Below, one piece after another: positions 19,612 through 40,503 of a DNA stretch of 43,315 bases (within the stretch, counting starts at the first letter, position 1; each line of letters starts with the position of its first letter). Position numbers and translations under genes: made by a program. Source of the DNA: Methylocapsa sp. S129 (GTDB lineage Bacteria > Pseudomonadota > Alphaproteobacteria > Rhizobiales > Beijerinckiaceae); assembly GCF_009765995.1 (NCBI RefSeq), contig NZ_LMUI01000012.1, positions 1-43,315 of the forward strand, written 5' to 3'. The notes below the pieces were generated by a model that saw only the letters and a program-made list of their open reading frames with translations, searched no databases and was not told the DNA's origin.

Positions 19612-20940
19612 ATGGAGATCGCCCAAAAAGACCAAGACCTGGCGCGCGCGCCATCGATGCATCCCGTGACGCTGCGCTTTGGCGATCGGCAATTGGAGCG
19701 CCGCTACCACGAAGCCCGCCTCCCCTATCGCATCCTCGCCAACCGGATCAGCGCTCTGGCCGGATCGCTCGCCTATCTCGCGTTCCTGACGTTGGACCGC
19801 TTCACGATCCAGGATCCCTCCGCCGCGTTGTTTACGGTGAGTCTGGCGGGAATCATCGGCTTCGCGCTCATCTTTCTAGCGACAATCCTGGTCAGGCCCG
19901 GGCGCTGGATCGAACCGATGGGCCTCGTGGTCATCGCCGGCAACGCGCTCTTCCTGGCGCTGTATCTGATGAGTTTGAGCGCAACGTCGCACGCCTATGA
20001 CCCGCCGTCGGCGGTCTATACGATGGCCGCGGTGACATGTTTTGCGCTCTGCGGCGTCACCTTCATCGAAGGCGCCTTGCTGGCGCTCTATACGATCGGC
20101 ATCTTCCTCCTGGTGGTCACGGTCCTTCTGCCCGAACCGCCTCTCGTCATCGAATATCAATGGGCCTGGATGGCGCTGGTCGTCGCCTTTTCCGCCATCG
20201 GCTCCTATCTGCTCGATCGCACGCAGCGCATTTCCTGGCTGCAGCGGCTCGACCTCGCCGAGGCGCGCACGCAGATCACCATCCTGCTCCACAATGTGCT
20301 GCCGCCGTCGATCGCGGCGCGCAAGCTCAACGGCGAAAACCCGATCGCCGACGATTTCCCCGAAGCGAGCCTGCTCTTCGCCGACGTCGTCGACTTCACC
20401 CGTCTGTCGTCGCGGCTGAGCTCGACGCAGGTCGTCTCGATGCTCGGCGCGCTGTTCGGACGCTTCGACCAGATTGCGCAGCGCTATGGCCTCGAGAAGA
20501 TCAAGACGATCGGCGATTGCTACATGCTGGCCGGCGGCATTCCCTTTTCCGATCCCGCCCATCTCGACAAGCTCGCCGCCGCCGCCCTCGACATGCTCGC
20601 GGCGACCCGAAGCGTCACCACCCCCGACGGCGCCGCGCTGACGGTGCGCATCGGCATGAACGCCGGCCCGGTGACGGCCGGCGTCATCGGCGAGTCGAAA
20701 TTCATCTTCGACGTCTGGGGCGACACGGTGAATGTGGCGAGCCGGATGGAGAGCCAGGGCGTCGAAGGCCAGATCCGCGTCACGAAATTCGTCCGCGACG
20801 CCCTCGCCCGCGCCTATGATTTCGAAGGCCCCTTCCGCGTCGACCTGAAAGGCAAGGGTCAGCTCGACGTCTGGCGGCTCGTTGCGGCAAGGACGGTGGG
20901 AGAAGCGGGTTGGGAGGCGACGAGAGGCAATCTCGCTTGA
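19612..20940 (+). CDS. Membrane-bound class III adenylate cyclase
   Basis: The protein has 442 residues. Six hydrophobic spans (about residues 45-205) are followed by a short linker helix (RISWLQRLDLAEARTQITILLHNVLPPSIA), as in mammalian-type cyclases, and one catalytic domain. Catalytic residues are visible: metal Asp in LLFADVVDFT and KTIGDCYM, purine-selecting Lys in EKIKTIGD and Asp in FDVWGD, and Asn/Arg in VNVASRM. Lys and Asp at the selector positions favour ATP, so the product should be cAMP. It acts as a homodimer. A later ATG at 19657 is an alternative start. Divergent from the HWE kinase. Confidence 0.93.
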   Translation: MEIAQKDQDLARAPSMHPVTLRFGDRQLERRYHEARLPYRILANRISALAGSLAYLAFLTLDRFTIQDPSAALFTVSLAGIIGFALIFLATILVRPGRWIEPMGLVVIAGNALFLALYLMSLSATSHAYDPPSAVYTMAAVTCFALCGVTFIEGALLALYTIGIFLLVVTVLLPEPPLVIEYQWAWMALVVAFSAIGSYLLDRTQRISWLQRLDLAEARTQITILLHNVLPPSIAARKLNGENPIADDFPEASLLFADVVDFTRLSSRLSSTQVVSMLGALFGRFDQIAQRYGLEKIKTIGDCYMLAGGIPFSDPAHLDKLAAAALDMLAATRSVTTPDGAALTVRIGMNAGPVTAGVIGESKFIFDVWGDTVNVASRMESQGVEGQIRVTKFVRDALARAYDFEGPFRVDLKGKGQLDVWRLVAARTVGEAGWEATRGNLA

Positions 20941-22746: not shown

Positions 22747-24024
22747 ATGCCGAGCGAGTTATTGGGCCAGTCCGCGGCGCGGCCGACGATCGACCCTAAA
22801 AACCTCGTGACCGTGGAGTCGTTCCAGCGCCCGGCGACCGAACGTCCTGGCTCCGAGACGATCGAGGGGATTGCCGAATGGCTGATTGGCGGCGCGCGCC
22901 GGAATCCTTCCTTCACGCAGACATTCGATGAGCTGGCGTGGCGGCTGGTCGCGACGGGCATGCCTCTGCTTCGCGCCAGCCTTCATAGCAACACGCTGCA
23001 TCCGCAGTTTCTCGGCGCCACCTATGTGTGGTGGCGCGACGAGGCGCAGACGCAGAAGATCATGATTAAGCATGAAATAGCAGATTTCATCCCCTATCAG
23101 GAGAATCCGATACGGCGGGTGCGCGAGGGCGGCGAGACCCTGCGGCGCCGGATGGACGGGCCCGAAGCCCCGTTCGATTTTCCTGTGTTGCACGATCTGA
23201 AGGCGCGCGGCGCCACCGAGTTTTTCGCGCTGCCGATCGCCAGTCAGTTCGGCTTTGGCGTTCATGTTGCGATCTACGTCGCCGACAGGCCAAGCGGCTT
23301 CACCGAGCGCGAAATTCGCGATCTCTCGTCTTTGTCCGAACGGCTGTCGGTGATCGCCGACATGAACAGTCAGCGACAAATCGCAGAAAACGTCCTCAAG
23401 ACCTATCTTGGGCCGCTGACCGGTCCCAGAGTGCTGGCTGGGCAAATGCGGCGGGGCAGCGGCGAGGCAATCTCCGCGGTGCTGTGGTCGTCAGACCTGC
23501 GCGGCTTCACGCAACTCTCCGATCGTCTGCCGGGCGAGCGCGTGATCGCCATGCTCAACGACATTTTCGATTTGCAGGCGCGCGCGATCGCGGACCATGG
23601 CGGCGAGATCTTGAAATTTATCGGCGATGGATTGTTGGCGATATTTCCTGTCGCTGATCCCGCCGACGCCCAACGGGCGGCCGCGAATGCGCTCGCCGCC
23701 GCGCAAGAGGCGCAGACAAAGCTGAGCGCGCTTCGCACTCGGCAGTCCGAGGACGGCCATCCGGAATTGGAAATTGTCGTGGCGCTGCATTACGGCATGG
23801 TCATCTACGGCAATGTCGGATCAGCCGACCGTCTCGATTTCACCGTCATCGGGCCCGCGGTCAATCTCGTCACCCGAATAGAAGCAATCGCCAAGTCGCT
23901 CGACCTGCCCGTCGTGATGAGCGACGATTTCGCGGGAGCCTATGGGCGACGCCTGACGTCGCTTGGTCTGCACAATCTGCGAGGCCTCGATCAACCGCAC
24001 GAGCTCTATACGGCGGCGATCTAG
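22747..24024 (+). CDS. Class III nucleotidyl cyclase with N-terminal sensory region
   Basis: The 425-residue protein is soluble. An N-terminal region of about 200 residues (FDELAWRLVATGMPLLRASLH...) is of the type common in rhizobial cyclases. The catalytic domain starts near residue 235: metal Asp in SSDLRGFTQLSDRL and in FIGDGLLAIF, selector Lys in ILKFIGDG and Thr in DFTVIG, transition-state Asn/Arg in AVNLVTRIE. All catalytic positions are present, so it should be active, probably making cAMP. The start follows AGGATC. The gene stands alone; a hairpin at 24091-24116 may end the transcript. Confidence 0.88.
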   Translation: MPSELLGQSAARPTIDPKNLVTVESFQRPATERPGSETIEGIAEWLIGGARRNPSFTQTFDELAWRLVATGMPLLRASLHSNTLHPQFLGATYVWWRDEAQTQKIMIKHEIADFIPYQENPIRRVREGGETLRRRMDGPEAPFDFPVLHDLKARGATEFFALPIASQFGFGVHVAIYVADRPSGFTEREIRDLSSLSERLSVIADMNSQRQIAENVLKTYLGPLTGPRVLAGQMRRGSGEAISAVLWSSDLRGFTQLSDRLPGERVIAMLNDIFDLQARAIADHGGEILKFIGDGLLAIFPVADPADAQRAAANALAAAQEAQTKLSALRTRQSEDGHPELEIVVALHYGMVIYGNVGSADRLDFTVIGPAVNLVTRIEAIAKSLDLPVVMSDDFAGAYGRRLTSLGLHNLRGLDQPHELYTAAI

Positions 24025-24263: not shown

Positions 24264-25820
24264 TCAATTCACCCGCCTCTCCTTCTCTTCCCAAAATGGC
24301 TTGCGCAATTCGCGCTTGAGGATTTTGCCGGCGCCGGACATCGGCAGCGGGACGTCGCGGATATCGACCGAGCGCGGGCATTTGTAATTGGCTATCCGCG
24401 CCTTGCAGAACGCGATGATCTCCTCGCCATTCACCTGCGCGTCGGGCCGCCTGACGACGACGGCATGGACCTCTTCACCCCATTCGTCGCTCGGCACGCC
24501 GACCACCGCGCATTGCACGACGGCCGGATGCTGCGCCACGACATTCTCGACCTCGATCGAATAGACATTCTCGCCGCCCGAAATGATCATGTCCTTGACG
24601 CGGTCGACGACATAGACAAAGCCGTCCGCGTCCATATAGCCGCCGTCGCCGGTATGCATCCAGCCGCCGACAAGAGCGCGCGCGGTCTCTTCCGGGCGCT
24701 CCCAATAGCCCATCATGACATTATCGCCGCGCGCGACGATTTCGCCAACGATTCCTGGCGCCACCGGCTGATCGCTGGGATCGACGATCCGCACCTCGCA
24801 GCCCAGCGTCGCGCGGCCGCCGGCGCGATGGCGCCCCTTGGCGCGGCCCTCGCCGATATGCTCCTTCCAGTGCAGAATCGTCGCGATCGGCGACAGCTCC
24901 GTCATGCCATAGGCCTGGCAGAATTGCGTATCGGGCAGCGCCGCCATCGCCCGATCGAGCACGGCCTCGCTGATCGGCGAGGCGCCATAGACGATGCGCG
25001 TCAGGGACGACAGGTCATGCGATGGGAGCGCGGGATGATCGACCGTCATCTGGATCATGGTCGGCACGAGCAACACTTCCGTCACCTTCTCGCGCTCGAT
25101 CGAGGCCATCGCCGCCTCCGGGCTGAAGGCTTTGATGATGACATTGGCGCCGCCGCTGAGCAGCAGCGCGAACATCGCCGCGCCATTGGCGAGGTGGAAC
25201 ATCGGCGCGGCGTGCAGATAAATGGCCTCGCTCGGGAAAAGCCCCTCGCTGAGAGCGTTCAGCGCATTGGCCATCAGATTGTCGTGGCTCAGCATCACGC
25301 CTTTGGAGCGCCCGGTCGTGCCGCCGGTATAGAAGATGCCGGCGAGGTCCTCGCGCTGGCGCATCGCATCGGGCATCGGCGCGCTGCGCGCCAGCAGCGC
25401 CTCGTAATGCTGGGCGCCGGCGGGCGCATCGTCGTCGTCGGCATAGACGAGGCGAAGCCCAGGCAGCGCCGCCGCCAGGCTCTCGCCGACGCCTGAGAAC
25501 ATTTTGTCGACGATCAGGATCGCCGCGCGGCAATCGCGCAGCGCATCCTCGTTCTCTTGCCGCGACCAGCGGATGTTGAGCGGCACGATCACCGCACCCG
25601 CCCAGGCGACGGCGAGATAGGTCTCGAGATAGCGGTCGGAATTCAGTGACAGGATCGCGACCCGTTCGCCGGGGCCGGCGCCGAGCGAGGCAAGACCGGC
25701 GGCGAGGCGCGGCGCGCGTTCGCCGAGATCGCGCCACTTTCTGCGTCGATCGCCAAAGACGGTCGCGAGACCATCCGCATTGACCTGCAATGCGCGCTTG
25801 AATCCATGCGTAATGTTCAT
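24264..25820 (-). CDS. Acyl-CoA synthetase (AMP-forming)
   Basis: The 518-residue protein belongs to the ANL superfamily. Motifs in order: the ATP loop FYTGGTTGRSKGVMLSH, YGMTELSP, GWMHTGDGGYMD, DRVKDMIISGGENVYSIEVE and the catalytic Lys in MSGAGKILKREL. It activates a carboxylic acid to its CoA thioester through an acyl-adenylate. It lies 39 bp downstream of the TetR gene's stop codon on the same strand, so regulator and synthetase are likely one transcript. It would feed the divergent beta-oxidation operon. A second synthetase is encoded in that operon, so the two may use different substrates. Confidence 0.92.
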   Translation of the reverse strand: MNITHGFKRALQVNADGLATVFGDRRRKWRDLGERAPRLAAGLASLGAGPGERVAILSLNSDRYLETYLAVAWAGAVIVPLNIRWSRQENEDALRDCRAAILIVDKMFSGVGESLAAALPGLRLVYADDDDAPAGAQHYEALLARSAPMPDAMRQREDLAGIFYTGGTTGRSKGVMLSHDNLMANALNALSEGLFPSEAIYLHAAPMFHLANGAAMFALLLSGGANVIIKAFSPEAAMASIEREKVTEVLLVPTMIQMTVDHPALPSHDLSSLTRIVYGASPISEAVLDRAMAALPDTQFCQAYGMTELSPIATILHWKEHIGEGRAKGRHRAGGRATLGCEVRIVDPSDQPVAPGIVGEIVARGDNVMMGYWERPEETARALVGGWMHTGDGGYMDADGFVYVVDRVKDMIISGGENVYSIEVENVVAQHPAVVQCAVVGVPSDEWGEEVHAVVVRRPDAQVNGEEIIAFCKARIANYKCPRSVDIRDVPLPMSGAGKILKRELRKPFWEEKERRVN

Positions 25821-25859
25821 GGTCGCCCTCCCCCGAGAATAGTTTTTGGCGGCAAGCGT

Positions 25860-26528
25860 CTACCGCGCCCCGCGTTCCGCGTTTCTTGATCTGGATTTTC
25901 TGGCCGCGAGCCCCTCAGTCAATCTGAGCGCGAACTCATCGGCAAGAGCCGCAGCCGAGAGTTCGCCGTCCGGTCTGTACCATTGGCCGATCCAGTTCAG
26001 CGATCCGGTGATGACAAGCGTGGCGAGCTTGGGATCGCGCGGCGCGATCGAACCATCGGCGACGCCCTGCGCGATCGCGGTCCGGAAGGCCGCGTCATAG
26101 GTTCGCTTGGCCTTGCGGACCCCGGCGCGCGCTTCGGTCGACAATTCGCGATCGTCGAGGCGGACGAGGCACATGCCAAAATCCGTCATCATCACTTGCG
26201 CATAGGCGCGGATCAGCCGGCGCAGCTTGTCGAGGCCATCGCCGCTCTCGCGCTCGATGGCGGCGATATTCGCCTCGAACATGTCCTGGCCCAGCCGATA
26301 GCACTCGATGAGGATGTCTTCCTTGCTGCGGAAATAATTGTAGAGCGCGGGCTTGGTGATGTTCAGCCGCGCCGCGACCTCGTTCAGCGTGGTGCGGTGA
26401 TAGCCTTCGTCGAGGAACATCTGCACCGCCATGCGCAGCACCGCGTCGCGCTTCTCGTCGCGCGCACGCCGGCGATCCTCGAACGGCGCCCAGGGCGGCG
26501 CTTCAGCTTTTTTGGTTAGCCCATGCAT
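25860..26528 (-). CDS. TetR family regulator of the acyl-CoA operon
   Basis: The protein has 222 residues. The N-terminal helix-turn-helix is clear (VLRMAVQMFLDEGYHRTTLNEVAARLNIT, then KPALYNYFRSKEDIL). The ligand domain includes a conserved tail of the FadR/KstR2-like sort (ITGSLNWIGQWYRPDG, seen in TetR_C_33-type proteins). The start at 26528 is supported by AAGGA 7 bases upstream; an ATG at 26567 in the same frame lacks one. It diverges from the thiolase operon, with a palindrome on the operon promoter in the gap. Repression relieved by an acyl-CoA is the likely mode. Confidence 0.9.
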   Translation of the reverse strand: MHGLTKKAEAPPWAPFEDRRRARDEKRDAVLRMAVQMFLDEGYHRTTLNEVAARLNITKPALYNYFRSKEDILIECYRLGQDMFEANIAAIERESGDGLDKLRRLIRAYAQVMMTDFGMCLVRLDDRELSTEARAGVRKAKRTYDAAFRTAIAQGVADGSIAPRDPKLATLVITGSLNWIGQWYRPDGELSAAALADEFALRLTEGLAARKSRSRNAERGAR

Positions 26529-26545
26529 GGCTGCGTCCTTTTTTG

Positions 26546-26574
26546 TTGACGGCGCGTTCGCGTTCATATATTAC
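26546..26574 (+). promoter_or_regulatory. Candidate sigma-70 promoter of the SCP-x thiolase operon
   Basis: TTGACG (26546-26551) and TATTAC (26569-26574) are 17 bases apart. Transcription would start near 26581, inside the palindrome at 26571-26603. The ribosome-binding site GGGAGGA precedes the ATG at 26620. Confidence 0.55.
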
Positions 26575-26603
26575 CCATTGGTCATAAAATGTCCAGAAGG
26601 TAA
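26571..26603. promoter_or_regulatory. 33-bp palindromic operator, probably for the TetR protein
   Basis: The site is centred at 26587. Matching positions are TTACC (26571-26575) with GGTAA (26599-26603), TGG (26579-26581) with CCA (26593-26595), and CAT (26583-26585) with ATG (26589-26591): eleven of sixteen pairs. It overlaps the -10 and the likely transcription start of the operon. No second copy was noticed elsewhere in the window. Confidence 0.65.
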
Positions 26604-26619: not shown

Positions 26620-27804
26620 ATGACTTCTCGAGTTGTCGTCGCGGGCGTGGGCATGATCCCTTTCGCCAAGCCCGGCGCCAGCGCGCCCTATTATGAGATG
26701 GGCGCAGAGGCCGGCCGCAGGGCGCTGGCGGACGCAGGCGTTGGTTATGAATCCATCCAGCAGGCCTATGCCGGCTATGTCTATGGCGACTCGACCTCCG
26801 GCCAGAAGGCGATCTATCCGCTCGGGATGACCGGCATCCCGGTCATCAACGTCAACAACAATTGCTCGACCGGTTCGACCGCCTTGTTCCTGGCGCGCCA
26901 GGCGATCGCCTCGGGCGCCGCCGATTGCGTGCTGGCGCTTGGCTTCGAGCAGATGAAGCCGGGCGCTCTGGGCGCCATATTTGCCGATCGGCCGAGCCCG
27001 TTCGAGGATTTCGACAAGGCGGCTGACGAACTTGTCGGAATGCCTGAAATCCCGCTGGCTTTGCGCTATTTCGGCGGCGCCGGCCTCAGCCATATGAAGA
27101 AATACGGCACGAAGCTCGAAACCTTCGCCAAAGTGCGCGCCAAGGCGAGCCGCCATGCCAAGAACAATCCGCTCGCCATCTTCCGCAAGGAGCTCTCGGC
27201 CGACGATGTGATGAACGATCAGGTCATCTGGCCGGGCGTCATGACGCGATCGATGGCCTGTCCGCCGACCTGCGGCGCCGCCGCCGCCGTGCTGGTTTCC
27301 GAAGAATTCGCCAAGCGCAAGGGATTGAAGACTGATGTCCGCATCGCCGCCCAGGCGATGACCACCGACACGGCTTCCACCTTCGATACCGCCGATATGA
27401 TGCGGGTGGTCGGTTTCGACATGTCGCGCGCCGCCGCGGCCAGTGTCTACGAGCAGGCCGGAATCGGGCCGGGCGATCTCGACGTCGTCGAACTGCATGA
27501 TTGTTTCGCCCAGAACGAACTGATCACCTATGAGGCGCTCGGCCTCTGCCCCGACGGCGGCGCCGAACGTTTCATCGAAAGCGGCGACAACAGCTATGGC
27601 GGCAAGGTGGTGACCAATCCGTCGGGCGGCCTTCTGTCGAAGGGCCACCCGCTCGGCGCGACGGGGCTCGCCCAATGCTACGAACTGACGCGCCAGTTGC
27701 GCGGCTCGGCCGAGGCGACCCAGGTCGAAGGCGCGCGGCGCGCTTTGCAGCATAATCTTGGTCTTGGCGGCGCCTGCGTCGTCACCCTCTACGAACGCGC
27801 ATGA
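26620..27804 (+). CDS. SCP-x type 3-ketoacyl-CoA thiolase
   Basis: The 394-residue protein closely follows the thiolase part of animal SCPx. The nucleophile Cys82 is in NNNCSTGS, and FARQAI-type, LALGFEQM, ELHDCF and GGLLSKGHPLGATGLAQ segments are all present. SCPx thiolases cleave 3-oxo-2-methylacyl-CoAs (from pristanic acid and bile-acid side chains) as well as straight chains. There is no C-terminal sterol carrier domain. The start follows GGGAGGA; the frame is open upstream but runs through the promoter. It is the first gene of the operon, and the next gene starts on its stop codon (ATGA). Confidence 0.9.
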   Translation: MTSRVVVAGVGMIPFAKPGASAPYYEMGAEAGRRALADAGVGYESIQQAYAGYVYGDSTSGQKAIYPLGMTGIPVINVNNNCSTGSTALFLARQAIASGAADCVLALGFEQMKPGALGAIFADRPSPFEDFDKAADELVGMPEIPLALRYFGGAGLSHMKKYGTKLETFAKVRAKASRHAKNNPLAIFRKELSADDVMNDQVIWPGVMTRSMACPPTCGAAAAVLVSEEFAKRKGLKTDVRIAAQAMTTDTASTFDTADMMRVVGFDMSRAAAASVYEQAGIGPGDLDVVELHDCFAQNELITYEALGLCPDGGAERFIESGDNSYGGKVVTNPSGGLLSKGHPLGATGLAQCYELTRQLRGSAEATQVEGARRALQHNLGLGGACVVTLYERA

Positions 27805-28259
27805 GGTCCGCCATGGTCGATCAATCCGCCGTCGGACGTAGTTTTGCGCCGGTCATTGCGCATGTCGAGCTGGGCCGCCTGCGCTATTTCTTCAACACGA
27901 TCGGCGAGCGCAATCCGCTCTATCGCGACGCCAAGACGGCGGAAGCGGCCGGCTATGCCGGGCAGCCGATCCCGCCGACCTATCTCTTCTGCCTGGAAAT
28001 GATGGACGCGGAACGGCCCTTCGAAATTCTCGAGGCGCTGAACATCGATCTCGCCCGCGTGCTGCATGGCGAGCAGCGCTTCGCCTATCACGCGCCCGCG
28101 ATCGTCGGCGACACGCTGACGTTTCAATCGCGCGTCAGCGGCGTGACCGAAAAGAAAAACGGCGCGCTGACCTTCGTCGCCGTCGAAACGAAAGTCACCA
28201 ACCAGACCGGCCTGCATGTCGCCGACGCCGCACGCACCATCGTCGTGCGGAACTCGTGA
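27801..28259 (+). CDS. MaoC-type N-terminal half hydratase, probably non-catalytic subunit
   Basis: The 152-residue hot-dog protein resembles the MaoC_dehydrat_N/FAS1-like domain (VELGRLRYFFNTIGERNPLY, PIPPTYLFCLEM, HGEQRFAYHAPAIVGD). The usual hydratase motif D-x-N-P-x-H is replaced by ERNPLY, so the catalytic Asp and His are missing. In actinobacterial systems such as ChsH1-ChsH2 and HtdX-HtdY, one such subunit pairs with a catalytic one. The partner here is probably the product of 28476-28892. The start overlaps the thiolase stop, and a second ATG at 27813 is possible. Confidence 0.85.
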   Translation: MRSAMVDQSAVGRSFAPVIAHVELGRLRYFFNTIGERNPLYRDAKTAEAAGYAGQPIPPTYLFCLEMMDAERPFEILEALNIDLARVLHGEQRFAYHAPAIVGDTLTFQSRVSGVTEKKNGALTFVAVETKVTNQTGLHVADAARTIVVRNS

Positions 28260-28294
28260 CGTGCGTCCGTCAGATCGAAAGATTGGCGCCCGCC

Positions 28295-28425
28295 TTCCCC
28301 TTCCCCCCTTGTGGGGGAAGGCCGGGATGGGGGGTCGCACCGAACTATCCAAGAAGTAGAGCGCCTTGATTTCATAGTGCATCGCGACCCTCCTCCCTTA
28401 CCCTCCCCCACAAGGGGGGAGGGAA
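28295..28425. repeat. Palindromic element inside the operon (hairpin family 2)
   Basis: Arms at 28295-28338 and 28384-28425 are inverted copies, each with the inner hairpin CCCCCTTGTGGGGG. The element fills most of the 216-bp gap between the two hydratase genes. As RNA it would form a long stem between two genes whose products probably form one enzyme, and it could act as a partial terminator or a stability element. Confidence 0.88.
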
Positions 28426-28475
28426 TGAACGAGGCTCCCGTCAACTTCGTTGACGCACGCCGTTAGGAGACGCCC

Positions 28476-28892
28476 ATGACCACCTCACCAGATCATTCGC
28501 CCGCGATCGGCGAGCGGCTTGTTCACAAGACCTTCGCGCCGATCACCCGGCACACGCTCGCGCTCTATTGCGGCGCTTCGGGCGACCATAATCCGATGCA
28601 TGTCGACATCGACTTCGCGAGACAAGCCGGATTTCCCGACGTGTTCGCCCATGGCATGCTGGTCATGGCCTATCTCGGCCAGGCGCTGACCGACGCGGTC
28701 GCGCCCGGCGCCGTCCGTTCGTTCTCGACGCGCTTTTCCGCCATCACCCAGCTTGGCGCCCGTCTCACTTGCGAGGGCGCGGTCGCCGAATTGTTCGATC
28801 ATCTCTCTGAAAAGCGCGCCAGGCTCGCGCTGACCGTCAAGGACGAACATGGCGAGACCAAGCTCGCCGGCGAAGCCATTATCGCTCTCTGA
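28476..28892 (+). CDS. MaoC-type (R)-enoyl-CoA hydratase, catalytic subunit
   Basis: The 138-residue single hot-dog protein keeps the hydratase 2 motif YCGASGDHNPMHVD with Asp37, Asn39 and His42, and the FAHGMLVMAYLGQAL helix. It hydrates trans-2-enoyl-CoA to the (R)-3-hydroxyacyl-CoA. Being a single domain, it needs a partner half, most likely the 27801-28259 product. The start follows AGGAG. The dehydrogenase gene begins 17 bp after the stop. Confidence 0.9.
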   Translation: MTTSPDHSPAIGERLVHKTFAPITRHTLALYCGASGDHNPMHVDIDFARQAGFPDVFAHGMLVMAYLGQALTDAVAPGAVRSFSTRFSAITQLGARLTCEGAVAELFDHLSEKRARLALTVKDEHGETKLAGEAIIAL

Positions 28893-28909
28893 TTGCAAGG
28901 AAACCTCTC

Positions 28910-29737
28910 ATGACCAAACTCACCGGAAAGGTCGCGCTCGTCTCGGGCTCCGGCCGCGGCATCGGCCGCTCGATCGCGCTCAAACTCGCGCGCGAAGGCG
29001 CGAAAGTGGTCGTCAACGATCTCGACGCCGAGCCCGGCGATGCCGTGGTCGCTGAAATCAGGGCGGCCGGCGGCGAGGCGGTCGCGGTCAACGGCAGCGT
29101 CGTCGAGTCTGGCTTTGCCGACCGTTTCGTCGGCGCGGCGATGGAAACATTCGGCGGCCTCGACATCATCGTCAACAATGCCGGCTACACCTGGGATTCG
29201 ACGATCCAGAAGATGACCGACGAGCAGTTCCAGGCGATGCTCGACGTGCATCTCGTCGCGCCCTTCCGCATCCTGCGCGCGGCCTCCGAGCCGATCCGGA
29301 TTCTCGCCAAGAAGGAAGCCGAGGCGGGCCAGGAAATATTCCGCAAGGTCGTCAACATCTCGTCGATCGCCGGCCTCTACGGCAATGCCGGACAGGCGAG
29401 CTATTCCTCCGCCAAAGCGTCTTTGATCGGGTTGACGCGCACGATGTGCAAGGAATGGGGGCGCTACAAGGTCAATGTCAATTGCGTCGCCTTCGGCCTG
29501 ATCAACACCCGCCTGACCCAGCCGATCGAAGCCCAGCAGAAGACCATCGACGTCGCCGGCCGCGACATCAAGGTCGGCGTGCAGCCCCAGTTGCTCGACG
29601 CGATGGCCAGAATGATTCCGCTCGGCCGCGGCGGCACACCCGAAGAAGCGGCCGACGCCGTCTATCTCTTCTGCAGCCCGGAATCGAACTATATCAGCGG
29701 CCAGGTGGTCGTCTGCGGCGGCGGCATCCTGATGTGA
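28910..29737 (+). CDS. Short-chain dehydrogenase, MFE-2-like 3-hydroxyacyl-CoA dehydrogenase
   Basis: The 275-residue classical SDR has the cofactor motif GSGRGIG, NNAGYTWD, and active-site Ser in NISSIAG with YSSAK (Tyr/Lys). The segment SIAGLYGNAGQASYSSAK resembles the SGIYGNFGQANYSAAK stretch of peroxisomal multifunctional enzyme 2, which oxidises (R)-3-hydroxyacyl-CoA with NAD+. Together with the MaoC pair it would provide the two activities that MFE-2 holds in one chain. FabG-like reduction is a possible alternative. It lies 17 bp after the hydratase gene and 10 bp before the crotonase gene. Confidence 0.9.
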   Translation: MTKLTGKVALVSGSGRGIGRSIALKLAREGAKVVVNDLDAEPGDAVVAEIRAAGGEAVAVNGSVVESGFADRFVGAAMETFGGLDIIVNNAGYTWDSTIQKMTDEQFQAMLDVHLVAPFRILRAASEPIRILAKKEAEAGQEIFRKVVNISSIAGLYGNAGQASYSSAKASLIGLTRTMCKEWGRYKVNVNCVAFGLINTRLTQPIEAQQKTIDVAGRDIKVGVQPQLLDAMARMIPLGRGGTPEEAADAVYLFCSPESNYISGQVVVCGGGILM

Positions 29738-29747
29738 GAGGCGCGCC

Positions 29748-30539
29748 ATGACCGAAGCCGCCTATCTCGCCTATGACGGGCCGATTGCGACGATCATTCT
29801 CAATCGTCCCGAGCGCTTCAACGCGCTTGACGAGGCGGCGGCGGTCACGCTCGCGGCCCTCGGGCGCGAACTTGCGGCGCGCGGCGATATCCGCGTCGTC
29901 GTGATCCGCGGCGCCGGTTCGGCCTTCTGCGCGGGCGGCGACATCAACCATATGGCCGCCCATCTCGACGACCCCGCGCCGATGGTGAAAGGCATATTGA
30001 ACGCCCACCATGAATTCCTGACCATCCTCAACGCACTTCCCGCCATCGTCGTCACCAGCGTCCATGGCGCGGCGGCGGGCGGCGGCTTCTCGCTCGCCTT
30101 CATGGGCGATCTTTGCATCGCGGCCGACAATGCGCGCTTCACGCCGGCCTATGCGCGTCTCGGCCTCTCGCCTGACGGCGGCGGCACGATCGGCCTCGTG
30201 CGCGCCGTCGGCGCCCGGCGCGCGCTGCAGATATTCCTGATGGAAGACAGTTTCGGCGCGGCTCAGGCCGAGACCTGGGGCCTCGTCAACAAAGTGGTTC
30301 CAGAAAGCGAGCTTCCCGCCACAACACAGGCGTTGGCCAGGCGGCTCGCCTCGCTCGGATCCGGCGCGGTCGCGGCGACCAAACGGCTCATCGCCGCATT
30401 CCCTGGCAAATCGATGGCGGAACAACTCGACGCCGAGATGAATGAGCTGATCGGCTGCATGCGGATGGAGCCGTTCCGCGACGCGGTGCGGCGTTTTATG
30501 GATAGAAGCAAGGATTCCAAGAGGGCCAGCGGCGCGTAA
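29748..30539 (+). CDS. Enoyl-CoA hydratase/isomerase (crotonase) family
   Basis: The 263-residue protein has the crotonase oxyanion loops GAGSAFCAGGDI and GAAAGGGFSLAFMGD. The second catalytic Glu of true hydratases is replaced in ARLGLSPDGGGT by Asp, as in PaaG-like isomerases, so it may shift double bonds (delta3-delta2) rather than hydrate. That would suit a pathway that already has a MaoC hydratase. It begins 10 bp after the dehydrogenase gene. Confidence 0.9.
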   Translation: MTEAAYLAYDGPIATIILNRPERFNALDEAAAVTLAALGRELAARGDIRVVVIRGAGSAFCAGGDINHMAAHLDDPAPMVKGILNAHHEFLTILNALPAIVVTSVHGAAAGGGFSLAFMGDLCIAADNARFTPAYARLGLSPDGGGTIGLVRAVGARRALQIFLMEDSFGAAQAETWGLVNKVVPESELPATTQALARRLASLGSGAVAATKRLIAAFPGKSMAEQLDAEMNELIGCMRMEPFRDAVRRFMDRSKDSKRASGA

Positions 30540-30618
30540 GCCAGCCAATAGCCTCAGCCAGAAAAAGCGCAACGAGCAATAAGCGCGCAATAGCGCGCCG
30601 CAAGGGAGATGTCCGCCG

Positions 30619-32148
30619 ATGAAACGATCCCTGGGAAAAATGCTGGTTGGCAATATTCTGGCCACCGCCGCGATCCGTTTCCGCGATGCTCCCGCGATCT
30701 ATTGCGCAAGCACAGGCCGGCGCTTCAGCTTCCGCGCGATCGACGATCGCGCCAATCGCCTCGCGCGGGCGCTGCTCAGCGCGGGCTATAAGAAAGGCGA
30801 CGTCGTCGCCTTTCTCTCATCCAACCGCGCCGAGATCGTCGAAATCTATTTCGCGCTGGCGCGCACTGGCATCGTCGGCCTGCCGCTGAACTATCGGCTC
30901 GCGGCGAGAGAAATGTTCGAACTGATGCGTGCAATGGGCGCCAGCGGCCTGATCGTCGAGAGCAAGTTCGCCGCGGTCGCCGAACAGGCGCGTGGGCTGA
31001 GACACATCATTCAATTTGGCGGCGAGAAGATCGGCTTTGCGCTCGACTATGAGACCCTGCTCGCGGCGGCGACGCCTGCGGCGCCCGATATCGAGATCGA
31101 CGAAGCCGATCCCTATTATTTCAACCTCACTTCCGGCACCACCGGCCTGCCGAAATCCTATGTGCTGACCCAGTATAACAACAGCACCCTCAGCCCATTG
31201 TTCCAGGCTTTCGACATGACGAGCCGCGATGTGGCGATGACGGTGTTCCCCGCCTTCGGGCGCGTCGGCTTCGCCTGGATCGCCGGCTCGCTGCTCTATG
31301 GCGTTCCGCATGTGCTGGCCAATTTCGAGCCGAACGAAGTGCTGCGCCTCATTGCCGCCGAACGCGTGACGATCTTCAACCTCGTTCCGACCATGGCGGC
31401 GATGCTGTTGCCGGCGCAGGCGGCCGCGCCGCGCGATCTCAACTCGGTTCGCGCGATCGTCTTCGCCGGGTCCAGCCTGCCCGCCAGCATCCGCGACGAG
31501 ACAATCGCAAAACTTTGCCCCCAACTCTACGAATATTACGGCATGCAGGAGACCGGCGCGCTGGTCGTCAGCACGCCCGAGGATCGCAGGCGACGGCCGG
31601 AGTCGGTCGGCAAGCAACTGGCGTTCGCCGAAGTCAGGATCGCTGGCGACGACGGCCGGACGCTGGAGCCGAACCAGCTTGGCGAGATTCTGGGTCGCTC
31701 GCCCAATGCCGTCGCCGAATATTTCGACAATCCCGAGAAATCGGCTGAGACATTTCGCGACGGCTGGGTTCATACCGGCGATCTCGGCAGCCTGGACGAG
31801 GAAGGCTATCTGACCATCCGCGGCCGCAAGAAAGATATGATCGTCACCGGTGGACAGAACGTCCATGCCGCGGAGGTCGAGGAAATCATCCTGCAATGTC
31901 CCGGCGTCGCCGAATGCGCGGTGTTCGGCCTCCCCGACGATCTATGGGGCGAGCGCGTCACCGGCCTCGTTGTCGCGCAGAAAGATGCCGATATCACGCC
32001 TGAGCGCCTCGAAGAATTTTGCCGGCGCCATCTCGCCGGATTCAAGACGCCAAAGAAATTCATTGTCGAAGAGACCCCGCTGCCGCGCACGCCGACCGGC
32101 AAAGTGCAAAAATTCCTGCTGGTCGCGCGATTCACGCGTCGAGCTTGA
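30619..32148 (+). CDS. Acyl-CoA synthetase (AMP-forming), operon copy
   Basis: The protein has 509 residues. ANL motifs are FNLTSGTTGLPKSYVLTQ, YYGMQETG, GWVHTGDLG, GRKKDMIVTGGQNVHAAEVE and the catalytic Lys in PTGKVQKF. It would activate the free acid for the pathway. It differs clearly from the divergent synthetase at 24264-25820 (for example TSGTTGLPKSY against TGGTTGRSKGV). It lies 79 bp after the crotonase gene, with AAGGGAGA before the start. Confidence 0.92.
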   Translation: MKRSLGKMLVGNILATAAIRFRDAPAIYCASTGRRFSFRAIDDRANRLARALLSAGYKKGDVVAFLSSNRAEIVEIYFALARTGIVGLPLNYRLAAREMFELMRAMGASGLIVESKFAAVAEQARGLRHIIQFGGEKIGFALDYETLLAAATPAAPDIEIDEADPYYFNLTSGTTGLPKSYVLTQYNNSTLSPLFQAFDMTSRDVAMTVFPAFGRVGFAWIAGSLLYGVPHVLANFEPNEVLRLIAAERVTIFNLVPTMAAMLLPAQAAAPRDLNSVRAIVFAGSSLPASIRDETIAKLCPQLYEYYGMQETGALVVSTPEDRRRRPESVGKQLAFAEVRIAGDDGRTLEPNQLGEILGRSPNAVAEYFDNPEKSAETFRDGWVHTGDLGSLDEEGYLTIRGRKKDMIVTGGQNVHAAEVEEIILQCPGVAECAVFGLPDDLWGERVTGLVVAQKDADITPERLEEFCRRHLAGFKTPKKFIVEETPLPRTPTGKVQKFLLVARFTRRA

Positions 32149-32193
32149 TCGAATCGGCCGGCGGCGATTTCGCCTCATAGGAAAGCATTCAAG

Positions 32194-33300
32194 ATGGCCG
32201 CCAAATCCGGACCTCTGCATGGGCTGCGCGTGATCGAAATGGCGGCCATCGGGCCCGGGCCGTTCTGCGGCATGATGCTCGCCGATCTCGGCGCCGATGT
32301 CGTGCGCATCGATCGTCCCGGCGCGTCGAGGCTCGGCGCCAATGCGACGCTCGACCGCGGCCGACAGGCTTTAACCCTCGATCTCAAGGACCCGCGCAAT
32401 GTCGAGACTTTGCTCGGCCTGGTGGAGAGGGCCGACGTGATCTTCGAGGGCTTTCGCCCCCGCGTGATGGAGCGGATCGGGCTCGGACCCGAAGTCTGCC
32501 TGGCGCGCAATCCGCGGCTGATCTTCGGCCGCATCACCGGTTGGGGACAGGAGGGCCCTCTCGCCCAGGCGGCGGGACACGATATCAATTATCTCGCTTT
32601 GTCGGGCATGCTTTGGCCGCTGGGTTCGGCCGATCGTCCGCCGGCGCCGCCGCTCAATCTTGTCGCCGATTTTGGCGGCGGCGGCATGCTGCTGGTCGTG
32701 GGCATTCTCGCGGCGCTGTTCGAAGCCAGGCGCTCAGGCCGCGGCCAGGTGGTGGACGCCGCGATGGTCGACGGCGCCGCGACGCTCGGAGCGATGATCT
32801 TCGGCATGATCGGCGAAGGCTCCTGGCGCGTCGAGCGCGAAGCGAACATGCTCGACGGCGGCGCGCCTTTCTACAGCGTCTATGAAACCAGCGACGGAAA
32901 ATGGGTGTCGATCGGTTCGATCGAGCCGCAATTCTACGCGCAATTGCTGACGCGTCTCAATCTTGATGGGCAGGGTTTCGAAGCGCAATGGGATCGGAGC
33001 CGATGGCCGGCCCTGCGCCAAGCGATCGCCGCCGCCTTTCGCGCGAAGTCGCGCGACGCGTGGAGCGCGGCGTTGGAGGGAACCGATGTCTGCTTTGCGC
33101 CGGTGCTCAGTCCGCTGGAGGTCGGCGCCCATCCGCACAATCGCCTGCGCAGCACATTCGCCGATGGCGCAGGCGCGCCTCAGCCGCAGCCTTCGCCGCG
33201 CTTCAGCCGCACGCCCGCCGCGGCCGGTTCTGCGACCGAAGCTGGCGACGCGGACGCGGCGACGATTCTCGATCGATGGAAAAGCGAGTCGTCCGCATAA
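32194..33300 (+). CDS. Alpha-methylacyl-CoA racemase (CaiB/BaiF fold)
   Basis: The protein has 368 residues. The racemase residues line up with Mycobacterium MCR at a constant offset of +3: His129 (AGHDINY), Asp159 (LVADFGGGG) and Glu244 (SIEPQFY). DGGAPFYSVYETSDGKWVSIG is typical of AMACR rather than of formyl- or succinyl-CoA transferases. It interconverts (2R)- and (2S)-2-methylacyl-CoA, which branched-chain beta-oxidation needs because the dehydrogenase is specific for one isomer. This gene is the strongest pointer to a 2-methyl-branched substrate. It lies 45 bp after the synthetase gene. Confidence 0.9.
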   Translation: MAAKSGPLHGLRVIEMAAIGPGPFCGMMLADLGADVVRIDRPGASRLGANATLDRGRQALTLDLKDPRNVETLLGLVERADVIFEGFRPRVMERIGLGPEVCLARNPRLIFGRITGWGQEGPLAQAAGHDINYLALSGMLWPLGSADRPPAPPLNLVADFGGGGMLLVVGILAALFEARRSGRGQVVDAAMVDGAATLGAMIFGMIGEGSWRVEREANMLDGGAPFYSVYETSDGKWVSIGSIEPQFYAQLLTRLNLDGQGFEAQWDRSRWPALRQAIAAAFRAKSRDAWSAALEGTDVCFAPVLSPLEVGAHPHNRLRSTFADGAGAPQPQPSPRFSRTPAAAGSATEAGDADAATILDRWKSESSA

Positions 33301-33359
33301 GGTCCACCGCCGTTGACGCCTCTTTGAACCCGTTCTTTCTCTCGTAAGGCCATATCGAC

Positions 33360-34505
33360 ATGACCTACCGCTCGTCCTGGATGACCGAAGAACTCGACGC
33401 CTTTCGCGACCCGTTCCGGAAATTTCTCGCCAAGGAATTGGCGCCGAACGCCGAAAAATGGCGCAAGCAGAAAATGGTCGATCGCTCCGCCTGGCGCGCG
33501 CTCGGCGAGATGGGCGCTCTTCTGCCGAGCGTGCCCGAAGCCTATGGCGGCCTCGGCGCGACTTTCGCTTACGACGCCGCCGTGTTCGAGGATATGGCGG
33601 ATGTTGCGCCCGACGCGCTCGGCGGCGTCACCGTCAGCAGCGGCATCGTCGCCCATTACATCCTGAATTACGGTTCCGAAGAGCAGAAGCGCCGCTGGCT
33701 GCCCGGCATGGCGCGCGGCGAATTGATCGGCGCCATCGCGATGACCGAGCCTGGCGCCGGTTCCGATCTGCAAGGCGTGCGCACCCATGCGCGTCGGCAA
33801 GGCAATGCCTATGTCGTCAACGGCCAGAAGACCTTCATCACCAACGGCCAGACCGCCGACCTGATCATCGTCGTCGCCCGGACGGGCGAGCCCGGCGCCA
33901 AGGGCCTGTCGCTGATCGTCGTCGAGACATCAGGCAATGACGGTTTCCGGCGAGGGCGCAACCTCGACAAGATCGGTCTGCACGCCTCCGACACGTCCGA
34001 ACTGTTCTTCGAAGACGCGATAGCGCCGCCGGAAAACCTGCTCGGCGGCGAAGAGGGCCAGGGCTTCACGCAATTGATGCAGCAATTGCCGCAGGAACGG
34101 CTGATCATCGCCGTCTGCGCCGTCGCCGCGATGGAGCGCGCGATCCGTTTGACTGTCGACTATACGAAGGAGCGCAAGGCTTTCGGCAAGCCGATCATCG
34201 ACTTCCAGAATACCGCCTTCAAGCTTGCCGAACGCAAGACCGAGGCGACGATCGCGCGGGTGTTCGTCGACTGGTGCGTCGGACGGCTGATCGCCGGCGA
34301 CCTCGATGCGGTGACAGCCTCGATGGCCAAATATTGGTGTGCGCAAAAACAGGTCGAGACCGTCGACGAGTGCCTGCAACTGCATGGCGGCTATGGCTAT
34401 ATGCAGGAATATCCGATCTCCGGCATGTTCGTCGACGCGCGCATTCAGAAAATCTACGGCGGGACCAACGAAATCATGAAACTGCTCATCGCCCGCTCGC
34501 TCTGA
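33360..34505 (+). CDS. Acyl-CoA dehydrogenase, LCAD type
   Basis: The protein has 381 residues. FAD/substrate motifs are AMTEPGAGSDLQG and FITNGQTADLIIVVART, followed by ERKAFGKPI and QLHGGYGYMQEYPI. The C-terminal motif is IYGGTNEIMKLLIAR, so the position of the usual base in MCAD (YEGT) is Gly. As in LCAD and isovaleryl-CoA dehydrogenase, the base is probably the Glu in LPQERLIIA (Glu246). LCAD acts on branched acyl-CoAs, which fits the neighbouring racemase. It is the last gene of the operon, 59 bp after the racemase gene. Confidence 0.92.
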   Translation: MTYRSSWMTEELDAFRDPFRKFLAKELAPNAEKWRKQKMVDRSAWRALGEMGALLPSVPEAYGGLGATFAYDAAVFEDMADVAPDALGGVTVSSGIVAHYILNYGSEEQKRRWLPGMARGELIGAIAMTEPGAGSDLQGVRTHARRQGNAYVVNGQKTFITNGQTADLIIVVARTGEPGAKGLSLIVVETSGNDGFRRGRNLDKIGLHASDTSELFFEDAIAPPENLLGGEEGQGFTQLMQQLPQERLIIAVCAVAAMERAIRLTVDYTKERKAFGKPIIDFQNTAFKLAERKTEATIARVFVDWCVGRLIAGDLDAVTASMAKYWCAQKQVETVDECLQLHGGYGYMQEYPISGMFVDARIQKIYGGTNEIMKLLIARSL

Positions 34506-34631: not shown

Positions 34632-34940
34632 ATGTCCGACATCCGGCAGGCACGCAAAGCGCTCGTCGCCCGGATCCTCGAAGGAGAGGGCGTGGCCTCG
34701 CACGCCCAGCGCCGCGCCGCGTTCGACAATGCGGCGATCGCCGAGTCGCTAAGCACGCTGATCGAAAAGGTCGCCAGTCACGCCCACACAGTCACCGACG
34801 CGGATATTGCCGCGACGCGGGCGTCGGGCCTCAGCGAGGACCAGATATTCGAAATCGTGGTCTGCGCCGCGCTTGGCCAGGCTACGCGGCAATACGACAC
34901 GGCGCTCGCGGCTCTCGACGCCGCGATCGGGAAAGGATGA
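34632..34940 (+). CDS. Small CMD-like helical protein without the Cys pair
   Basis: The 102-residue protein is all-helical. The C-terminal half (SEDQIFEIVVCAALGQATRQYDTALAAL) resembles the end of carboxymuconolactone decarboxylase/AhpD domains, but the CxxC motif is absent. Its stop overlaps the start of the next gene (ATGA), which does have a CxxC, so the two products probably form a complex. The substrate is unknown. It follows the acyl-CoA operon after 126 bp and may or may not be part of it. Confidence 0.7.
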   Translation: MSDIRQARKALVARILEGEGVASHAQRRAAFDNAAIAESLSTLIEKVASHAHTVTDADIAATRASGLSEDQIFEIVVCAALGQATRQYDTALAALDAAIGKG

Positions 34941-35524
34941 CCATGCGCCTTGCGATCCTCGATAGCGGCCACGGTTTCGGCGCCAAGGTTCTGTTTGCGA
35001 TCATTCGCGCAGTGTCGCGTCAGCCGACGCCTGAGGTCGTCAAGTTGATCATGTATCGTCCGGATTTCTTTGGCGCGCATATGAAAGCGGTCACCCACGA
35101 AGCGATGCGCGGACCCTCCGCGTGGTCTGTTGGCGACCGCGAGCTGATGGCGGCGTTCGTGTCGAAGATCAACGCGTGCGAGTTTTGCGTCAAGACGCAC
35201 AGTGCGGTCTCGGCGAGGGCGTATCGCGATCAAGCGAAGGTCTCGGCGGCGCTCTCCGATCCTGATACAGCGGCCATCGAGGAGCCGCTGCGAGCCACGT
35301 TGGGCCTATTGGGCAAACTGACGCGCGAAAACGCCGTGAGCGCAGATGACATGCGCGCGGCGCTCGCTGCCGGCGCCTCGCGCCAGCAAATCGAAGATGC
35401 GCTCGCGGTCTGCTTTGCGTTCAATACGATGAACCGGCTGGCCGATGCCTTCGGGTTCTTCGTGCCGGGACCCGAAGCCTTCGAGGCCGGCGCGAAGTTC
35501 CTGCTCGCGCGAGGCTACCGTTGA
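34937..35524 (+). CDS. AhpD/CMD family protein with redox CxxC
   Basis: The 195-residue protein carries NACEFCVKTHS (Cys81, Cys84, His88), the active-site pattern of AhpD-like peroxidase/alkylhydroperoxidase proteins. The following helices are of the CMD fold. The start overlaps the previous stop; a second ATG two codons later is possible. It may act in peroxide or thiol redox chemistry with its smaller partner. Confidence 0.85.
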   Translation: MTMRLAILDSGHGFGAKVLFAIIRAVSRQPTPEVVKLIMYRPDFFGAHMKAVTHEAMRGPSAWSVGDRELMAAFVSKINACEFCVKTHSAVSARAYRDQAKVSAALSDPDTAAIEEPLRATLGLLGKLTRENAVSADDMRAALAAGASRQQIEDALAVCFAFNTMNRLADAFGFFVPGPEAFEAGAKFLLARGYR

Positions 35525-35661: not shown

Positions 35662-35973
35662 ATGTTCACATCATTGACCAAGACAGCCGCTGTTGCGGCG
35701 CTTGCCATCGGCCTTGCGCTCGCAGGGCCCGCAACCTCCGCCGACGCGGCGTTCCGTAGCGGCGGCGGCCACGGCGGGGGATTCCATGGCGGCGGCTTCC
35801 ATGGCGGCGGCTTTCGCAGTGGCGCCTTTCATGGCGGCGGCTTCCGCGGCGGCCGCTTTCACCATGGCTATGCCGGCGGTTATGGCGGCTATGGCGGCGG
35901 CTATTATGGCTACGGCTACGGATATGGCTGTCCGTTGTCGCCCCTCGCGGTCATCACGGGCTATTGCTACTGA
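35662..35973 (+). CDS. Glycine/histidine-rich secreted protein
   Basis: The protein has 103 residues. A Sec signal peptide (TAAVAALAIGLALAGPATSADA) is followed by short repeats of GGGFHGG and GGYGG type, with a Cys near the end (YGCPLSP and TGYCY). Such Gly-rich proteins may coat the cell surface or bind metal through His. The start follows GGAGAG. The 137-bp upstream gap is AT-rich and likely holds a promoter. A second small secreted protein follows. Confidence 0.75.
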   Translation: MFTSLTKTAAVAALAIGLALAGPATSADAAFRSGGGHGGGFHGGGFHGGGFRSGAFHGGGFRGGRFHHGYAGGYGGYGGGYYGYGYGYGCPLSPLAVITGYCY

Positions 35974-39443: not shown

Positions 39444-39460
39444 GGCGGCGTCACGCCGCC
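39444..39460. terminator. Hairpin at the convergent ends of the GNAT and cyclase genes
   Basis: GGCGGCG-tca-CGCCGCC is a perfect 7-bp stem that includes the stop codon of the minus-strand cyclase in its loop. It could end transcription in both directions. There is no T tract. Confidence 0.4.
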
Positions 39461-40503
39461 CACGATCCGATCGGCGCCGTCGCCTGCAGCGCGAAGAGTT
39501 CGGCCGGGCTCTTTTTGCCGCGCAGTTGGATCGGTCCCAGGGCGCGCGCGGCGATGCCTGGCGGGATCGTCAGTTGGCTCAGCAGCGCCGCCGAGGCGAG
39601 GACCGGCTCGGCGGCGTCGCGACAGGCGTCGACGATGCGCGCCGCCGTATTCAGAGTGTCGCCGAGTAAAGCGATCTCCTTCTTGATCGTGCCCATCTCG
39701 CCCACGACCACCGGCCCGCAATGCAGGCCGGCGCGGAAATCCACCCGCAGGCCGAATTCGCGCTCGTAAGACGGACCAAGGTCGGCCAGTTTCTGGATCG
39801 CGCCGAAGCAGGCGCGCAGACAGCGCGCGTCCTTGACGCCGGCGGCTAGCGGCCAGGTCACGATGAGTTCGTCGCCGACATATTTGTGGATCTGGCCCTT
39901 CTGCGTCACGAGAGGGCCGGTGAGATCGCTGACGAAGCGATTGAGCAGGCGATGAAAATCGACCTCGCCGAGACGTTCGGCGGCGGCGGTCGAATTCTTC
40001 ATGTCGATGATGAGAAAGACGCGCTGCTCGACGCGCGGCCTGAAGTAACGGCCGGTGACGAAGCTCAGCAAGACGTTCTGTCCGAGCAGGCTGTTCACAT
40101 CGAGCAGGAAGTTGATCACAAAGCTGACGGCGACGAAGAACAATATGTCGCCAAGCCCGATACGCACGCCAGGCGCGGACGGGATGGGCACGAGCCACTG
40201 ACCGGCCGCGAGGCTGAACAAGAAGACCGCAAGATAGACCAGCGATTTCAGGCCGAGATGCAAGAGAAACGGCGCCCGGCGGAGAGGCTCGCCGATCGGC
40301 GCTTGCAGGGCGAAAACATTGAACGAGGTGAGAACGGCGCTGACGAAACCGCCGATCAGCGCCCCGCGCTCGACGCCATAAGAGCCGGCAGCTCCAGCCG
40401 CCGTCGTGGTCAAATAACCATATGCCGCGCCCACGACGGCGCCGACCAGGGCGAGCCTGAGAATCAGCGGGACGAGGATGCGTGTCCGGTCGTCGATGGC
40501 CAT
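39451..40503 (-). CDS. Membrane-bound class III nucleotidyl cyclase
   Basis: The protein has 350 residues. Four hydrophobic spans (about residues 8-140) precede the catalytic domain. Catalytic residues are visible: metal Asp in FLIIDMKNST and KYVGDELIV, Lys in HKYVGD, and Asn/Arg in GDTLNTAARI. The ring is rather divergent (IDMKNS instead of the usual ADxxGF), as in several alphaproteobacterial cyclases. It is the third cyclase in the window. Confidence 0.88.
   Translation of the reverse strand: MAIDDRTRILVPLILRLALVGAVVGAAYGYLTTTAAGAAGSYGVERGALIGGFVSAVLTSFNVFALQAPIGEPLRRAPFLLHLGLKSLVYLAVFLFSLAAGQWLVPIPSAPGVRIGLGDILFFVAVSFVINFLLDVNSLLGQNVLLSFVTGRYFRPRVEQRVFLIIDMKNSTAAAERLGEVDFHRLLNRFVSDLTGPLVTQKGQIHKYVGDELIVTWPLAAGVKDARCLRACFGAIQKLADLGPSYEREFGLRVDFRAGLHCGPVVVGEMGTIKKEIALLGDTLNTAARIVDACRDAAEPVLASAALLSQLTIPPGIAARALGPIQLRGKKSPAELFALQATAPIGSWAA

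Follow-up and report, generated by a model that had tools for sequence, protein, structure and literature searches.

The eight-gene operon at positions 26620-34505 of the window, that is, of the whole stretch of 43,315 nucleotides of Methylocapsa sp. S129 DNA that was analysed, is probably a regulated catabolic set for a complete (R)-specific turn of beta-oxidation which accepts 2-methyl-branched acyl-CoAs. This reading of the sequence is supported by the grouping of its thiolase with the SCP2-thiolase 6hsj, by the catalytic triad of its alpha-methylacyl-CoA racemase (AMACR), by the placing of its dehydrogenase in the LCAD group, by the recurrence of the set in other lineages and by the co-occurrence of thiolase and racemase genes. 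The feature studied includes the divergent genes at 24264-26567, a TetR-type regulator and an acyl-CoA ligase, which are transcribed oppositely from a shared promoter region and are part of the system. All eight genes of the operon are open, intact, on the same strand and at the places given by the initial annotation of this DNA, and the domain and NCBIfam profile scans put them in the families that it proposed. No description of the operon was found in the literature searched, most subscription journals being outside its scope. The features are as follows.

24264..25820, minus strand: acyl-CoA ligase 1 (facl1), AMP-binding family (PF00501/PF13193; NF004837, 498 bits)
25860..26567, minus strand: TetR-type regulator (TetR_C_24; PF00440, PF17932)
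26546..26584, plus strand: divergent promoter region with putative TetR operator (columns conserved in upstream regions)
26620..27804, plus strand: type-1 SCP2-thiolase without SCP2 domain (6hsj, 472 bits; NF006102, 693 bits)
27801..28259, plus strand: maoN, HadA-like non-catalytic half of a split MaoC hydratase (PF13452, 137 bits)
28262..28470, no strand: dispersed REP-like repeat (85 match rows in own genome)
28476..28892, plus strand: maoC, HadB-like catalytic hydratase half, Asp37/His42 (PF01575, 68 bits)
28910..29737, plus strand: SDR, probable 3-hydroxyacyl-CoA dehydrogenase, FabG-like, Ser151/Tyr165/Lys169 (domain scan, solved-chain matches)
29748..30539, plus strand: crotonase, probable enoyl-CoA isomerase (best solved match PaaG 4fzw_C, 134 bits)
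30619..32148, plus strand: acyl-CoA ligase 2 (facl2; PF00501, 224 bits)
32194..33300, plus strand: AMACR, His129/Asp159/Glu244 (MCR 1x74, 393 bits)
33360..34505, plus strand: LCAD-type acyl-CoA dehydrogenase, Glu246 base (2pg0, 380 bits; human LCAD 8w0t, 361 bits)

The thiolase start at 26620 is preceded by GGGAGGA, and the longest open frame begins further upstream. The protein has 394 amino acids and consists of thiolase domains only, the C-terminal SCP2 domain of SCPx not being found by the domain scan. It carries Cys82 in NNNCSTGS, HDCF at 293 with Cys295, and His343 in GHP, and the four checked residues are kept in 97/97 rows of at least 60% identity among homologues in the fetched loci, from which the residue counts of the other proteins were also taken. 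The top solved chains are the type-1 SCP2-thiolases 6hsj and 6hrv (472 bits) and the next solved relative is benzoylsuccinyl-CoA thiolase (189 bits); 6hsj, which we take to be the zebrafish peroxisomal SCP2-thiolase, is 57.8% identical across 389 columns. A tree of 38 rows, the result of thinning 111 sequences, has one animal row, 6hsj, which groups with 31 bacterial rows (support 96/98), apart from BbsB and other thiolases, and so supports the SCPx-type label of the initial annotation. The 6hsj row sits just outside the bacterial thiolase rows (98/91), a position that is unsure because long branches, including the outgroup, meet there, as the tree program warned. In the available portion of PMC8919083 the zebrafish structure is cited under a title containing 'SCP2-thiolase (type-1)', and human pristanic and bile-acid intermediates are cleaved by SCPx alone; an excerpt of PMC12329534 gives HDCF as a mark of SCP2-thiolases.

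The racemase is a predicted racemase of 2-methylacyl-CoAs. In the solved-chain search racemase chains score 375-394 bits against it and the first non-racemase chain 125 bits, and its His129/Asp159/Glu244, as first proposed, align with MCR His126/Asp156/Glu241, which are catalytic according to the accessible part of PMC12246613. The triad is kept in 24/24 rows of at least 45% identity, which include the own gene and count five genes twice, so that 19 different genes are represented, and in 0/10 rows of 26-31% identity.

The dehydrogenase scores 380 bits to 2pg0 and 361 bits to human LCAD 8w0t, with all remaining chains at or below 241 bits. Its Glu246 falls at the position changed to Gln in the inactive LCAD mutant 8w0z; it is kept in 56/56 rows of at least 53% identity, and Gly367 occupies the MCAD-type base position; the LCAD type and the Glu246 base expected for this protein are thus both upheld. 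As far as the partial text of PMC11153573 goes, the LCAD base is Glu291 (helix G) and LCAD is argued to accept branched and bulky substrates.

The MaoC hydratase pair is a split enzyme, with the Asp/His hydratase 2 motif present in maoC (Asp37/His42, kept in 71/71 rows) and missing from maoN. The nearest solved chain is HadB for maoC (60 bits) and, weakly, Rv0504c for maoN (38 bits), which matches the NCBIfam HadA model with 55 bits, below its cut-off. The dehydrogenase that follows had been called MFE-2-like, and this label was rejected. Yeast MFE-2 2et6 leads the SDR matches by total score (226 bits) because two domains are summed; domain by domain it gives 117 and 110 bits against 146 bits for FabG, which is therefore nearer, just as the hydratase is nearer to HadA/HadB, and dehydrogenase and hydratase 2, fused in MFE-2, are separate genes here. 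The SDR residues Ser151/Tyr165/Lys169 are kept in 69/69 rows. The crotonase has PaaG 4fzw_C as nearest solved chain (134 bits) and is matched by the NCBIfam oxepin-CoA hydrolase and PaaG models below their cut-offs; it carries Asp143 as in PaaG, and Ser115 and Ala134 at positions that we presume to be the Glu sites of hydratases, and is therefore likelier an isomerase than a hydratase. Its family in the earlier enzyme list was right; it seems not to be a hydratase, and we regard it as a probable enoyl-CoA isomerase.

From these families and residues we infer the following reactions. A ligase would make the CoA ester, and AMACR, by interconverting the (2R)- and (2S)-methyl forms, would give both of them access to the pathway. 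The LCAD-type dehydrogenase would yield the 2-enoyl-CoA, which a maoN/maoC heteromer may hydrate to the (3R)-hydroxyacyl-CoA, and the SDR would oxidise this product. The SCPx-type thiolase would then cut the 3-oxoacyl-CoA, releasing propionyl-CoA from a methyl-branched unit and acetyl-CoA otherwise, and the PaaG-like crotonase may shift misplaced double bonds. The TetR protein would block the divergent promoter and come off on binding its ligand, which is probably an acyl-CoA.

The one regulated promoter of the initial annotation is a divergent one with a conserved operator. The hexamers TTGACG (26546-26551) and TATATT (26567-26572), with a spacer of 15, were taken from conserved columns; the pair is absent from the output of the sigma-70 scan, whose rule asks for a spacer of 16-18. 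A putative TetR operator, TTACCCATTGGTCA, lies at 26571-26584. The upstream regions of 80 loci were compared for the motif TTAC-N6-GTMA, these loci being the best 80 of at least 581 stretches, from named genomes, that encode a thiolase relative; they reach up to 10 kb on each side, some are cut by contig ends, and in 60/80 both the 3 kb before and the 8 kb after are covered. The motif was found in 51 of the 52 regions with an adjacent divergent TetR gene (the exception is L035), in 1/28 regions without one (L021, where TetR lies at a distance of about 4.5 kb) and in 0.23% of shuffled sequences. TetR is divergent from the thiolase in relatives too, and its best NCBIfam match is the fatty-acid regulator FadR, below the cut-off. 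Since the promoter lies inside the longest TetR frame, the true TetR start may be the ATG at 26525.

Bradyrhizobium and Rhodopseudomonas share the conserved core of the system, ligase-TetR // thiolase-maoN-maoC-SDR-dehydrogenase. Among the best 80 loci maoN was found in 63, maoC in 62, the SDR in 59, the dehydrogenase in 47, TetR in 53 and facl1 in 54; all six partners are held by 43/80, and in each of these 43 the dehydrogenase stands within 450 bases after the SDR. The second ligase, facl2, is present in 5/80 and adjoins facl1 in three of them (L005, L023, L026), and a crotonase of at least 60% identity was found in 0/80.

The AMACR-containing set is also clustered in a different alphaproteobacterial family and among Actinobacteria. 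In G128 the row on one strand is thio-maoN-maoC-acad-sdr-amacr, with maoN only 32% identical, and in G123 it is amacr, GMC oxidoreductase, facl1, thio, maoN, maoC, sdr, acad, crotonase, also on one strand, with amacr 3.7 kb off. A Rhodococcus qingshengii plasmid carries thio-maoN-maoC-SDR-ACAD-AMACR, followed by TetR and a ligase gene and preserving the residues that were checked, and a Rhodococcus pyridinivorans plasmid carries thio-maoN-maoC-SDR-ACAD-ligase-crotonase-ligase-crotonase-AMACR, its ACAD matching as two overlapping pieces and perhaps broken; both plasmids were chosen for close AMACR and thiolase coordinates and hence show existence and not frequency. AMACR with the triad was found in 4/8 plasmid regions opened (L094-L098, L123-L125), two of the four being preselected. 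The order in L047 and L066 is TetR // thio-acad-amacr.

Co-occurrence was counted in a phylum sample of 299 genomes, the own genome included, with thresholds of E 1e-120 for the thiolase and E 1e-70 for the racemase; both searches are presumed to cover the same sample, and as at most 6 candidates were scored per genome the counts may be low. The thiolase was found in 14 genomes and the racemase in 59. With the own genome excluded, the racemase is present in 8/13 thiolase genomes against 50/285 others (Fisher p 0.0008, ignoring kinship and genome size). Among 60 relatives, own included, the thiolase is in 5 and AMACR in 23, and with the own genome excluded the racemase is in 4/4 thiolase genomes against 18/55 others (p 0.016, with the same two factors ignored). 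The thiolase and AMACR genes are at most 5 kb apart in G128 and G123, 2 of the 8 co-occurring genomes, where 0.03 genomes are expected by a rough estimate whose limit was set after the data were seen; in G345, a third of the 8, an AMACR and a 63% thiolase paralogue are 13 kb apart.

Several observations weigh against a branched-chain role. An AMACR of at least 45% identity stands near the thiolase in only 3/80 best loci (L047, L060, L066), and among the five thiolase-bearing relatives the two genes are linked only in the own genome, although in G001 and G005 the thiolase is on contigs of 30 and 41 kb, where distant linkage could be hidden. The closest relative, G060, has the locus without facl2 and AMACR: its order is SDR-crotonase-dehydrogenase, facl2 adjoins facl1 (the two contigs were read separately) and its two AMACR genes are at other places, so facl2 and AMACR were gained between crotonase and dehydrogenase here or lost there. 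Among close relatives a crotonase at the locus is common only to the own genome and G060. AMACR is present in 50/54 searched thiolase genomes from the best 80 loci, which is no proof of joint use, and the enrichment figures themselves ignore kinship and genome size. A Pseudosulfitobacter plasmid combines thiolase and AMACR with a dehydrogenase outside the LCAD type. In the operon dehydrogenase a Gly aligns with the pocket-opening Pro132 of LCAD, and a Pro84 stands four residues earlier, by an alignment counted by eye. The own genome, which is 98.8% complete, has 0 matches to PhyH (PF05721), and its one AtuA homologue adjoins a tannase gene, away from the operon. For the claim of a dedicated 2-methyl-branched pathway, the recurrence of the set elsewhere counts in favour, and the AMACR and facl2 additions, which were not seen at the locus in close relatives, count against.

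These points leave some room, though we think it rather unlikely, for beta-oxidation of straight-chain, dicarboxylic or aryl-alkanoic acids, in which racemase and facl2 would be passengers in one genome and the SCPx-type thiolase would have no branched role. The AMACR-less core is the common form of the locus, as the 43 loci with all six partners show, G060 has neither racemase nor facl2 there, and the next solved relative of the thiolase is benzoylsuccinyl-CoA thiolase. Set against this, a different alphaproteobacterial family and Actinobacteria have the AMACR-bearing set in one cluster, thiolase genomes are enriched in AMACR, and the thiolase and the dehydrogenase each fall among types that are known to handle branched substrates. 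Breakdown of a steroid or bile-acid side chain is improbable: AMACR, LCAD and SCPx are tied to animal bile-acid intermediates in the available portions of PMC11153573 and PMC8919083, and both ligases match the steroid-24-oyl-CoA synthetase model weakly (304 and 237 bits; cut-off 750), but 0 steroid-specific families were found in the 25 window proteins scanned (ring-cleavage genes elsewhere in the genome were not searched for) and the domain scan found no DUF35-type domain in the operon proteins. A synthetic direction, in which the set builds a branched or hydroxylated acyl chain, agrees with the likeness of hydratase and SDR to FAS-II HadA/HadB and FabG, and is very improbable given two ligases, an acyl-CoA dehydrogenase, an SCP2-thiolase and a FadR-like regulator (below cut-off).

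With a branched-chain role preferred, the favoured substrate class is methyl-branched acids, isoprenoid-like or other, either free or as side chains of larger molecules. In at least 14 marine alphaproteobacterial plasmid records among the matches listed, a type-1 thiolase and an AtuA gene share a strand at a distance of 3.8-7.5 kb. This was read from the coordinates of some of the 88 thiolase and 64 AtuA records, and near-copies make up most of the 14; on 290 kb Pseudosulfitobacter plasmids the distance is about 17 kb. Through this closeness the thiolase family is connected, in some lineages, with isoprenoid-like acids. A 37.7 kb plasmid of Pseudosulfitobacter pseudonitzschiae (L096, diatom sample) holds two AMP-binding ligases, a type-1 thiolase and an SDR, and further 37-41 kb plasmids with a thiolase are among the matches listed. 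Acyclic-terpene carboxylation in the own genome was considered and set aside, as there is one AtuA match but in a tannase/ABC-transporter context, and the domain scan found no AtuA or carboxylase genes in the operon. That match lies in an unexpected setting on contig 30 (L122 9041-12464), where an AtuA-family gene, a tannase/feruloyl esterase and an AtuA ferredoxin-like gene are followed by ABC transporter genes. Phytanate alpha-oxidation by PhyH is unlikely, as no PF05721 match was found. Methylmalonyl-CoA mutase genes are present in the own genome; they are common and so a weak clue. No substrate clue came from the neighbours scanned in L112, L114, L047, L066 and L060, among them heme genes, a GMC oxidoreductase, regulators and transport genes.

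If the operon does serve branched chains, it would be a compact bacterial counterpart, under regulation, to the reactions that are lost in people deficient in AMACR or SCPx, and the role of bacterial type-1 SCP2-thiolases would become testable in Rhodopseudomonas and Bradyrhizobium; it would also bear on the origin of the peroxisomal enzyme. The conserved operator is a direct route to the inducing acid. More tentatively, thiolase, split hydratase, SDR, LCAD-type dehydrogenase and AMACR may form an old module of Proteobacteria and Actinobacteria for 2-methyl-branched acyl-CoAs, with animal SCPx (and LCAD) descended from bacterial members, a proposal that we consider doubtful.

The gaps from thiolase to dehydrogenase are, in gene order, -4, 216, 17, 10, 79, 45 and 59 bases, and the 216-base gap between maoN and maoC holds the dispersed repeat. 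This repeat is palindromic, many of its 85 match rows are both strands of one place, and it might affect read-through into maoC. Shortly 3' of the operon the frame 34937-35524 has a carboxymuconolactone decarboxylase domain, and the product of the short frame 35662-35973 is a repeat protein rich in glycine and histidine that begins with a hydrophobic stretch. An adenylate/guanylate cyclase domain occurs in three window genes (19612-20940, 22747-24024 and 39451-40503). A tRNA-Ala (cgc) was called by ARAGORN at 3303-3395; it overlaps the long opposite-strand frame 2883-3965 and is possibly false.

Of the known systems, the animal branched-chain and bile-acid beta-oxidation (AMACR, acyl-CoA oxidase, MFE-2, SCPx) has in common with the operon the SCPx-type thiolase, AMACR and a probable (R)-specific hydration and dehydrogenation. 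It differs in that here an LCAD-type dehydrogenase replaces the oxidase, separate HadA/HadB-like and FabG-like proteins replace the fused MFE-2, the SCP2 domain is missing and the genes form one operon with TetR. The central claim of the initial annotation, that a bacterial operon holds enzyme types of animal branched-chain beta-oxidation, is correct in its main points, and its thiolase, AMACR and LCAD types are upheld; peroxisomal branched-chain oxidation begins with an oxidase (PMC8919083) and LCAD is mitochondrial (PMC11153573). The operon is thus not a copy of the peroxisomal set, as its middle steps are FAS-like bacterial enzymes and its first step is a dehydrogenase. The Rhodococcus qingshengii cluster D6M20_RS01625-RS01600 has the same thio-maoN-maoC-SDR-ACAD-AMACR row, then TetR and ligase; it differs by the absence of crotonase from the row and the other place of TetR, and is annotated by family names only. 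The mycobacterial MCR and cholesterol side-chain genes share the AMACR triad with the operon, but of that gene set, whose make-up we assume here, the DUF35 partner and Ltp2-type aldolase were not seen in the domain scan and only one dehydrogenase gene is present. The AtuA (acyclic terpene utilization) clusters on the two opened Roseovarius and Roseibium plasmids have a type-1 thiolase and an SDR in the same row, together with AtuA and biotin-dependent carboxylases of which the operon has none. The Bbs pathway has a related thiolase, and its SDR BbsD is among the matches of the operon SDR, but BbsB is 35% identical to the operon thiolase and carries HDAF for HDCF.

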